64,000 nucleotides of DNA. Source: Microbacteriaceae bacterium (GTDB lineage Bacteria > Actinomycetota > Actinomycetes > Actinomycetales > Microbacteriaceae). The translations under genes were made by a program, and so were the position numbers. Of the stretch, positions 2,892 to 27,838 are shown in pieces (positions within the stretch are counted from its first letter, which is position 1; every line of letters starts with the position of its first letter). Below the pieces are notes generated by a model. That model was given only the letters and a program-made list of their open reading frames with translations. It searched no databases and was not told where the DNA came from. Location: the NCBI GenBank assembly GCA_027487865.1, contig JAIYCT010000007.1:62001-126000 (forward strand). Reading direction: 5' to 3'.

Positions 2892-2914
2892 TTGTCAGCG
2901 GGTGCTGTTAGTAT
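2892..2914 (+). promoter_or_regulatory. RecA-NDp/PafBC-like promoter upstream of ssrA
   Basis: TTGTCAGCG-N8(GGTGCTGT)-TAGTAT versus recalled consensus TTGTCRGTG-N8-TAnnnT; 44 bp upstream of mature tmRNA start. Confidence 0.55.
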
Positions 2915-2958
2915 TGTGGCCTTGGAAGGTCCAAGACGTTACTACAAAAACTAAACAT

Positions 2959-3327
2959 GGGGATGATCGGTTTCGACACTGCAGTGTTTGCGTGAATGAA
3001 GCGGGTCGAGGATGCACAGTTATCTCGTAAACGATCTGTGTAAAACAATAGGTGCCAATACAAAGCGCGCCGACTTCGCCCTAGCCGCATAAGCTAGCCC
3101 CGAAGTCCGTCTGACTAGGTTTGATTTCGTCCTAGACCCAGACGTCATTTAGAAATCTTGCTGGTTGAGCGCGTCACAGGATCAACCGGGACTTTTACTG
3201 TGACTGGGCCTGTCTGCGTAGTTGCTTCAGACAAATTCAGGGGCCGAGTAGAACGACTTATGAAGCTACACCCGTAGAAGAGTCACAATCTTTGCAATGG
3301 ACGGGGGTTCAATTCCCCCCATCTCCA
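2959..3327 (+). ncRNA. ssrA: tmRNA (ssrA), tag peptide ANTKRADFALAA
   Basis: 5' GGGGAUG pairs with 3' CAUCUCC; T-arm GGGGGTTCAATTCCCCC; tag reading frame GCC AAT ACA AAG CGC GCC GAC TTC GCC CTA GCC GCA TAA at 3054-3092; CCA not encoded. Confidence 0.95.
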
Positions 3328-3333
3328 CGTTAG

Positions 3334-3363
3334 AAAGCCCCGGGCTAATACCTCGGGGCTTTT
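3334..3363 (+). terminator. Rho-independent terminator of ssrA
   Basis: AAAGCCCCG...CGGGGCTTTT stem with T tract. Confidence 0.85.
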
Positions 3364-16733: not shown

Positions 16734-17045
16734 TTACCTCTTGTCAATATCCATGTGTTCTAAACGTGCAATCAGTCTATTCGTTCTGGCTTCCTCGGCA
16801 TCCTGCTTTGCACGAATGCGTTTCTTACTAGTCACTAACACCTCGCTAAGGTCTTCAGCCGTGGTGTTTTTGGCCGCTGTGAATTCTCTCTCGATTGGTT
16901 CTGCCAACAGGTGCATTGATGCTTGAAGTGGCAAGGCTGCGGCCTGCAGTCCCTTCAAACTCAGGAATAGTCGGTAGCCAACTAAAACCAGCCAGTAGAG
17001 GCTGGCAGCAATCGCGCCGATCCCAATGATCCATGCCCAACTCAC
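16734..17045 (-). CDS. Small single-TM hypothetical protein between pafC and tatA
   Basis: 103 aa; N-terminal TM then charged helix; tightly packed in operon. Confidence 0.7.
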   Translation of the reverse strand: MSWAWIIGIGAIAASLYWLVLVGYRLFLSLKGLQAAALPLQASMHLLAEPIEREFTAAKNTTAEDLSEVLVTSKKRIRAKQDAEEARTNRLIARLEHMDIDKR

Positions 17046-17992
17046 TCTTCGGTCACCACGTCCCCATCTAGGCTTCTGGCGGCAAAGTCCCGAACCGCAT
17101 CACGAGCGGTAGAAGGTGCGATTACCTCAACCGCTCCCCCGTAGCGAACCACATGCCTGGCAATCGCCGCGATGTTTCCCACCTTGATAAAGCCATGAGT
17201 TCTGCCATCAACTTTGGTTAGCTGACCCTCAACCGGGAAGTTCCAGAAAATCTCTGCGGCCGAGGACTCTGCTGCAATCTCGACAACCTCACCAACCCCT
17301 GTCCCATAGACCTCGTCAGGGATGACCTCTTGAGTTGCCTCTTTGGAAATTGGCAGCTTGGTATCGGATAGGTTCGAGGTGCGCTCGATGCGGAAACTTC
17401 TTAGCTCTTTCGCATCCAGGCAATACCCGCGCAGATAGTGCTTGTTTCCAACCAGGTCAATCCTCAGTGGGTCAACGCTTCTGTGGGAGTGCTTCCCCAA
17501 CTGGTTTATGTAGTCAAACTCCACCCGGTGTGACCCCAAAATGGCGTCTCGCAGAACCCCGAGCTGGTCGAGGTTCAGGTTTGCATTGACGACAATCCGC
17601 TGCGTGACACTGCCGCTGAGCGCTGTGCGAAGCTCGGTTAGATCCTTGTTGGACTCAAACTCCGGAAGGCTCGCCAAATACTCCAGACCGATTGCCAGCG
17701 ATGTTTGCTGGTAGCGACTTAGCACCGGGGCTTGGTCAAGGTGAGAGGACCCACGATTGAAGGCAACAATGCCCTCGTCAAAGGAATCAAAATCTAAGTA
17801 GAAGTGCGACTGCGGGGAGGTTAGGTCCTCGCTGTTGGTGATGGCATGGACGGCCTTGGCAATTGCCTTTTCGCTGACGTTGAAGTGCTTAGCCAGTTCA
17901 GCAATTTCAATGCCACCTTCTTGCATCACGAGTCCAACTATGGCTAGTGCCAGATTGAAAACTCCATCGCCGTCTATCTCCTGCTTAGGCAT
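17042..17992 (-). CDS. pafC: WYL-domain transcriptional regulator PafC
   Basis: HTH N-terminus, WYL-type core (YLRGYCLDAKELRSFRIERT); tandem with pafB, adjacent to tatAC. Confidence 0.88.
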   Translation of the reverse strand: MPKQEIDGDGVFNLALAIVGLVMQEGGIEIAELAKHFNVSEKAIAKAVHAITNSEDLTSPQSHFYLDFDSFDEGIVAFNRGSSHLDQAPVLSRYQQTSLAIGLEYLASLPEFESNKDLTELRTALSGSVTQRIVVNANLNLDQLGVLRDAILGSHRVEFDYINQLGKHSHRSVDPLRIDLVGNKHYLRGYCLDAKELRSFRIERTSNLSDTKLPISKEATQEVIPDEVYGTGVGEVVEIAAESSAAEIFWNFPVEGQLTKVDGRTHGFIKVGNIAAIARHVVRYGGAVEVIAPSTARDAVRDFAARSLDGDVVTEE

Positions 17993-18923
17993 GCTGCTTC
18001 ATCACCGCCTTCAGGGAAGCTCGCATCCGGCGCTTGAGCGACTCAGGCTCAATCACCTCGACATCTGTCCCAAACTCCAAGAGGTCCTCGGCCAGCAGTG
18101 CTTCGTCCATGTAGTTCAACTTGGCAATGCCGTCATCGGAGGGGCTGAGCGCAAGCTCCGCCTCGGTGTCGCCGGTCACCTTGATGGTTGCAAGGTTTCC
18201 AAGCACGAAGTCGTTGAGCTCCTGCTCGACCTGTTGCAGTTCCGCATTGGTGAGTCGCTTAGCCTCAGCCTCCAAGATTTCGACCTCGGAGACGATTCGA
18301 CGAAGTAAGAAATTTTTGCTTTGCCCCTCGTGAACCGCGAGCAGTACCCACTGGCCCTCTATTTGACGCAAGCGTTGAGGAGAGACGAGTCGGTCAGATA
18401 GTCCACCATCGGGTTTTTGGTATTTGAATGCGACCTGTAAAGAGTCTTCGATGGCCTTGGCAATTGGCGCAAATGCCGAATGCCTGGTTAGTAATCTCGG
18501 GGTGAATGGGTTCAGGTCGGTGTTACTGGCTACAAGTCCTAGGGACTTGAGCCTGGTTAGTCCACTCTGTGCGCTACCTTCGAGAACCTGGTTGTTCCAG
18601 GCTTTGGCTGCAAGCTCCAACAGCTGCATTTTGGCGCTATTGAGAGTGAGCTCTTTTGGCCATCGGAAGGATTCTTTTGCAATTCGATAGCGAGCAACCT
18701 CAGCGTCTTCGAAACCGAAGTTGTTGATTACCTCAAGCTGGATGCCCGCCTCTTTAAGGGAGGTTTTATCACGCTCGAACAGCCTGTTGGCTGCCTCTTC
18801 AGTCTTCGAATCCTGATATCCGGGGACAGCTCGAAAAATGTCCTGCTTACTAAGCCCCTTGATCTCGGTGCTGAGCAGGTAGCAGGTAAGCGTGAAGAGT
18901 CGCTCGGCGGGAGATTGCTTCAT
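17985..18923 (-). CDS. pafB: WYL-domain transcriptional regulator PafB
   Basis: ERLFTLTCYLLSTEIKGLSKQDIFRAVPGY...NRLFERDKTSLKEAGIQLE N-terminus. Confidence 0.9.
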   Translation of the reverse strand: MKQSPAERLFTLTCYLLSTEIKGLSKQDIFRAVPGYQDSKTEEAANRLFERDKTSLKEAGIQLEVINNFGFEDAEVARYRIAKESFRWPKELTLNSAKMQLLELAAKAWNNQVLEGSAQSGLTRLKSLGLVASNTDLNPFTPRLLTRHSAFAPIAKAIEDSLQVAFKYQKPDGGLSDRLVSPQRLRQIEGQWVLLAVHEGQSKNFLLRRIVSEVEILEAEAKRLTNAELQQVEQELNDFVLGNLATIKVTGDTEAELALSPSDDGIAKLNYMDEALLAEDLLEFGTDVEVIEPESLKRRMRASLKAVMKQHA

Positions 18924-27069: not shown

Positions 27070-27124
27070 GTGTCAAGTCTAAGAGTGTCGGTAAGCCTCG
27101 GTAGTCTGGGCGCAAGGAGAAGCC

Positions 27125-27838
27125 TTGTTAGATTTTGATTTTGATCCAAACCGCCCAGCCTGGAGTAAGCAACTCGCGGTTTTTGACCTCGAAACCACCG
27201 GTCTAGATCTCGACACCTCGAGGATCGTGACTTCCACGGTCGCGGTTATCGATTCCAACGGCGAACCTACCGAGGTCCACGAGTGGCTAGTAAACCCTGG
27301 AATTGAAATACCGGAGGCTGCGGCCAATGTCCATGGAGTCACGACGGAGATCGCAAAAGCCAATGGCGTTGAGCCGGGGCCTGCTATCTCCGAAATGCTT
27401 GAGGTTCTTACCCTTCTGAATAAGTCAATGCCGCTTGTGGCATTCAATGCTCCCTACGACTTTTCAATATTGAAATCCGAGGCTGAAAGATATGACTTTC
27501 AGCCACTGTCTCCATTCCCGGTAATCGATCCGCTGGTTCTCGACCGTAAGCTCGTGAAGTTTCGCTCGGGCAAAGGTTCTAGGACCTTGATTGCACTTTG
27601 CCGTGACTATGGCGTTGAGCTATCGGATGCTCACAACTCAACTGCTGATGCTGTTGCCGCAGGACGTTTGGCACAGCGCCAGGCAGCTAAGTTCCCTGCG
27701 TTGAATGTTTCTGCTGAAGAACTGCATGCGTCACAGGCTATGTGGTCAGATGAGCAGAGCTTGGAATTTGAAGCCTGGCTTAAACAACAAGACCGCCCGG
27801 ATTACCGTGCGGTCTTGGGTTGGCCAATAAAGAATTAG
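27125..27838 (+). CDS. DnaQ-like 3'-5' exonuclease
   Basis: [36 protein letters not shown] start with RBS. Confidence 0.9.

Follow-up and report, generated by a model that had tools for sequence, protein, structure and literature searches.

A putative PafBC-type, damage-inducible promoter upstream of the tmRNA gene in a Microbacteriaceae bacterium

The gene ssrA encodes tmRNA, the RNA that frees stuck ribosomes by trans-translation, and the question raised by this locus is whether its transcription responds to DNA damage. We address it for a Microbacteriaceae genome from a window of 64,000 nucleotides (the whole stretch of DNA analyzed; coordinates count from its first letter), following up an earlier note that had read the region in front of ssrA as a RecA-NDp-type promoter and suggested damage-induced trans-translation. 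Judged from sequence, this interpretation is supported, with the computable checks largely in its favor, and we put the probability that ssrA has a PafBC-type, damage-inducible promoter over an extended −10 element at about 0.68. The region contains the following features.

2892–2900, plus strand: PafBC "−26" element TTGTCAGCG (8 of 9 RecA-NDp positions; TGTCAG constant in genomes G203, G213, and G208, flanks different)
2906–2914, plus strand: extended −10 element TGT-TAGTAT, for the housekeeping sigma factor (TG-N-TAnnnT kept in most of the genus)
2915–2958, plus strand: 44-nt leader from the −10 to the mature tmRNA 5′ end (terminal AACTAAACAT conserved genus-wide)
2959–3330, plus strand: ssrA, tmRNA with tag ANTKRADFALAA (ARAGORN, Rfam)
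3335–3362, plus strand: probable intrinsic terminator of ssrA, AAAGCCCCG...CGGGGCTTTT (by inspection)

ARAGORN places the tmRNA at 2959–3328 with tag ANTKRADFALAA, and the Rfam RF00023 match spans 2959–3330 (E 1.1e-55). Read directly from the sequence, TTGTCAGCG at 2892–2900 is followed by GGTGCTGT at 2901–2908 and TAGTAT at 2909–2914, with 44 nt between TAGTAT and the tmRNA 5′ end, GGGGATGATCGG at 2959. Against the RecA-NDp consensus, printed as tTGTCRgtg, 8 nt, TannnT (PMC5656591), the site agrees at 8 of 9 positions and at 3 of 3 positions of TAnnnT, the sole mismatch being C for T at position 8; the earlier note had thus given the motif's position, sequence, spacing, one-mismatch count, and 44-bp distance to ssrA correctly. 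TGT precedes TAGTAT, which makes the −10 an extended one. A sigma-70 −35 hexamer is absent at spacings of 15–19 nt, where CGCATT, GCGCAT, AGCGCA, CAGCGC, and TCAGCG are found, none of them resembling TTGACA. Upstream of the window's ssrA we saw neither an SOS box nor GGAAT, the SigR/SigH half.

Two observations concern the gene and its leader more generally. The leader (2915–2958) may form a hairpin, CTTGG-AAGGT-CCAAG, upstream of the conserved AACTAAACAT; its stem letters vary among members of the genus, and pairing seems to be retained. Elsewhere, ssrA occurs in three copies in genome G133 (contigs C1 and C2) and in two copies at most 2 kb apart in G074 (C7).

The activators to which such a promoter would respond are encoded in the same window.

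17042–17992, minus strand: pafC, with HTH_PafC, WYL, and WCX domains (Pfam; PafBC structure matches)
17985–18923, minus strand: pafB, with WYL and WCX domains and recognition helix RLFER (R47, R51) (Pfam; phmmer)

Their identity, asserted in the earlier note, is confirmed by Pfam domains and by similarity to PafBC chains of known structure (6sj9, 7p5x, and 9fnd). With phmmer, the window's PafB aligns with A. aurescens PafBC (6sj9, 2.7e-29) and with M. smegmatis PafB (7p5x, 9fnd). Its R47 and R51 align with R44 and R48 of 6sj9 (RLFER vs. RMFER), which the paper on that structure names as strictly conserved, so the recognition-helix arginines are retained. Of 23 genomes in the genus, 22 have PafB, and the single genome without it is only 55% complete.

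Use of the motif across the window's own genome was surveyed on both strands of three large contigs (1.37 of 1.465 Mb, with small contigs totaling ~95 kb outside the scan). Seven sites reach 8/9 plus 3/3 among 2.74 million positions. Six of them fall within reading frames or on their borders and were set aside, which leaves the ssrA site alone in being intergenic with a same-strand gene immediately downstream. Because the earlier note had surveyed the whole window, this rarity alone is not decisive, and the main weight is carried by comparative tests. In intergenic upstream regions of the genome, paired TGTC and TAnnnT peak at a distance of 12, with 8 sites of the form TGTC-N12-TAnnnT vs. 2.4 in dinucleotide shuffles and 6 of the variant with TAGnnT vs. 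0.7; the antisense count is an unclean control here, as divergent genes share DNA. Four of the eight sites precede dnaQ, gyrB, radA, and dnaX; the others stand before genes for thymidine phosphorylase, a solute-binding protein, and a protein of 775 aa, and before an Eco57I-like methylase/helicase locus. A weight matrix derived from recA sites further points to genes for an AdnAB-like helicase-nuclease pair (959 and 1025 aa), a SpoU methylase, and a member of the uracil-DNA glycosylase family. Since the genes downstream are mostly those of replication and repair, the PafBC-type motif is very likely in use in this genome. One of these sites lies in the window.

27085–27107, plus strand: second PafBC-type site, GTGTCGGTA-N8-TAGTCT, 17 nt upstream of a dnaQ-type exonuclease gene
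27125–27838, plus strand: DNA polymerase III epsilon-like exonuclease, PRK07942 family, the likely target of the 27085 site

Among the best PafBC-type sites in this genome (G000) is one 59 nt upstream of genes for an Eco57I-like methylase (1345 aa) and a SNF2/PLD-type helicase (1156 aa), at contig C7:131040-138544 (L114), perhaps a defense locus under damage control. Another strong site in that genome precedes the 775-aa protein (contig C4:16626-18953, L066), which has no match in Pfam or NCBIfam.

The reference target recA carries the element in the genus as aTGTCnnAG-N8-TAGCTT near the start codon, adjoining the SOS box TTCGAAATTTTGTTCGAAC, and in the family's other genera 22 of 28 genomes have TGTC-N12-TAnnnT at recA. 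In the copy of the window's own species, AGTC replaces TGTC (first letters AAGTC). The suggested check for the motif at repair genes was borne out in part: recA and other repair genes carry it, but the inspected upstreams of uvrA, ruvB, and recN, which lie inside operons, have no such site. Among other genes, the genome's own clpP, clpX, and clpC have no good site with strict TGTC, and smpB was not located by a simple motif search. The ssrA site scores 9.9 with the recA-derived matrix, a moderate value at about rank 60 genome-wide.

Comparison of ssrA upstreams gave the stronger test. Among 20 distinct upstreams from the genus, most retain the extended −10, and 6 have TGTC at the correct distance vs. 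0.23 in shuffles, genomes of one genus not being independent samples; the six carriers form two clades (G000, G203, G213, and G208; G212 and G197). In the alignment of the window's own clade, TGTCAG and GTGCTGTTAGTAT are unchanged amid diverged flanks and are the best kept blocks. Two close relatives of G212 and G197 lack TGTC (TTGTGG in G211, TGGCCG in G206), which shows the element to be dispensable and open to loss. Across the family, TGTC-N12-TAnnnT occurs in 18 of 121 distinct ssrA upstreams vs. 0.55 in shuffles, and counts at neighboring distances range from 0 to 4. Of 7936 tetramer-spacing pairs (256 tetramers, 31 distances), only GTTG immediately before the −10 ranks above TGTC at spacing 12. 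The sister genus has the element at ssrA in 3 of 3 genomes; conservation is patchy in the window's own genus (6/20) and strong outside it, in the sister genus and in six other genera. The motif is thus well above chance in relatives, and only at the correct spacing, but its confinement to two sub-clades of the genus means that "this lineage," for which the earlier note had proposed damage induction, is narrower than the genus.

Beyond the family, a class-wide scan of 395 genomes, in which only tmRNAs starting GGGGNTGATCGG can match and other 5′ ends (e.g., GGGGCTGAACGG) are missed, detected an ssrA site of the RecA-NDp form in the window's genome and in three genomes of one other genus (g164). 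A further family, f22, which we take to be the Mycobacteriaceae, has the looser TGTC-N12-TAnnnT upstream of ssrA in 10 of 121 genomes and 7 of 31 genera (L340–L349), against an estimated chance expectation of ~0.5 and none with a reversed-pattern control. Several of the ten sites have GGAAT or GGGAT just upstream. In f22 genus g129, the pattern was not seen in the three genomes inspected.

A second regulatory pattern meets the first at this gene. The SigR/SigH-type GGAAT-N18-GTT is widespread at actinobacterial ssrA (loci L008–L333), far beyond shuffles, being found upstream of ssrA in 26 of 121 cases in the family, 7 of 26 in the order, and 7 of 26 in the class (shuffles at most 0.2). For S. 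coelicolor, ssrA has been proposed to be under SigR control (PMC4921905). The pattern is found in 0 of 20 ssrA upstreams of the window's genus. Loss of SigH was considered as a cause of the missing GGAAT half and rejected, as SigH is present in the window's own genome and genus. In six genera (g13, g38, g46, g59, g65, and g82), the SigR/SigH-type and PafBC patterns are interlocked at ssrA. All 15 promoters sampled from them (L159, L163–L168, L170, L171, L306, L310, L312, L314, L317, and L323) fit GGAAT-N7-GTC-N-G-N6-GTT-N-TA-N2-CT with varying spacers, the exceptions being one with the first gap 1 nt shorter and two from g46 with CGTC for TGTC; the genera were picked after TGTC had been seen and with GGAAT-GTT as part of the filter, to which neither the G that always follows TGTCN nor the C in the −10 belonged. 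On a recA gene tree, the composite-promoter genera are separate from the window's genus (g65 is not on the tree). We give even odds to the broader reading, in which ssrA of small-genome Microbacteriaceae-type genera stands on a composite promoter with SigR/SigH-type (GGAAT...GTT) and PafBC (TGTCnG...TAnnCT) patterns interlocked on ~33 bp, thiol or protein stress and DNA damage would both raise ribosome rescue, and the window's lineage would have kept the DNA-damage half only.

A mechanism can be proposed from published work. In M. smegmatis, PafBC activated by single-stranded DNA bridges SigA domain 4 and the −26 element (PMC11804915), and recA P1 has been linked to PafBC (PMC5656591). What is observed here is the motif with its spacing, sites of this kind at repair genes and again at ssrA of relatives, and genes for PafBC; as the components of this mechanism are present at the ssrA promoter, basal transcription from the extended −10 together with damage induction would be expected. 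Housekeeping RNA polymerase would transcribe ssrA from a promoter lacking a −35 element, with TGT-TAGTAT setting the basal level. Upon DNA damage, the PafB-PafC heterodimer would be activated by single-stranded DNA; of its subunits, PafB would read TGTCAG around −26 and PafC would contact sigma domain 4 (sigma adaptation). Transcription of ssrA would then rise together with that of recA, the AdnAB-like nuclease, radA, dnaX, dnaQ, and others, and the extra tmRNA would rescue ribosomes trapped on mRNAs that damage has broken or cut short. PafBC binding, ssrA induction, and the benefit to the cell are what we infer; recurrence of the element in related genera suggests, short of proof, that DNA damage raises ribosome rescue.

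One alternative is that the housekeeping sigma factor simply uses an extended −10 promoter at ssrA, with TTGTC at −26 a neutral resemblance at which PafBC is inactive. It would explain why the extended −10 and not TGTC is conserved in most of the genus, and it fits the moderate score of the site with the recA-derived matrix; the AGTC of the species' own recA likewise means that TGTC is not strictly required at the reference target. We nevertheless consider it unlikely, given the spacing-specific enrichment at ssrA across the family, the invariant GTC-N-G in 15 promoters of six genera, and the retention of TGTCAG in the window's own clade amid diverged flanks. Somewhat more doubtful still is that the element functions in some relatives and is decaying in the window's genus, to the point of no longer working in this species: its patchy presence there and the lost GGAAT half would accord with this, but within the clade no blocks are better kept than TGTCAG and the extended −10, and other repair genes retain their sites.

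It is improbable, finally, that the element is read mainly by another factor or sigma, such as ClgR or SigH/SigR. ClgR was once reported to recognize the recA P1 motif in M. smegmatis (an earlier claim cited in PMC5656591), but the initiation-complex structures show PafBC, not ClgR (PMC11804915). In favor of SigH/SigR are the common GGAAT-N18-GTT at ssrA in family, order, and class, the control by SigR proposed for S. coelicolor (PMC4921905), and the SigH gene in the genome. Against them, the window's ssrA upstream lacks GGAAT, as do all 20 upstreams of the genus the full pattern. TGTC also does not belong to the established SigR/SigH consensus. Control by PafBC over an extended −10 remains our preferred reading.

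If it is correct, trans-translation would be part of the DNA-damage response in some actinobacteria, controlled at the promoter and forming a direct link from genome damage to ribosome rescue, and a single promoter would be available for studying how sigma adaptation by PafBC overlaps with an ECF sigma factor. Precedent of another kind for connecting damage with trans-translation comes from M. tuberculosis, in which a tmRNA-cleaving toxin is made from the damage-inducible higBA operon (PMC3912914; PMC2897130). We found no report placing ssrA in the PafBC regulon, and ssrA is unnamed in those parts of the PafBC/WYL literature that our search covered; an earlier mention elsewhere is possible. 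The promoter type is known, and ssrA as its target and the interlocked form in relatives appear to be new.

Among the closest known systems is RecA-NDp, the PafBC-activated recA P1 promoter of mycobacteria, with which the ssrA promoter shares TGTCAG, the 8-nt gap, TAnnnT, equal spacing, and the lack of a −35 element, as well as PafBC encoded in the genome and the same element at recA of the family. It differs in its target, a stable ribosome-rescue RNA instead of a repair gene, in one consensus mismatch, in its extended −10, and in being a prediction from sequence. Like actinobacterial LexA SOS box promoters, it would place a gene under DNA-damage control, and both kinds of element, SOS box and PafBC, stand at recA of the genus; unlike them, the window's ssrA has no visible SOS box, and control would be by activation instead of derepression. 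With the SigR/SigH-type ssrA promoter of S. coelicolor it shares putative stress control of the same gene, at which GGAAT-N18-GTT is found class-wide, whereas the window's ssrA is without GGAAT and, in six other genera, that pattern is interlocked with the PafBC element.
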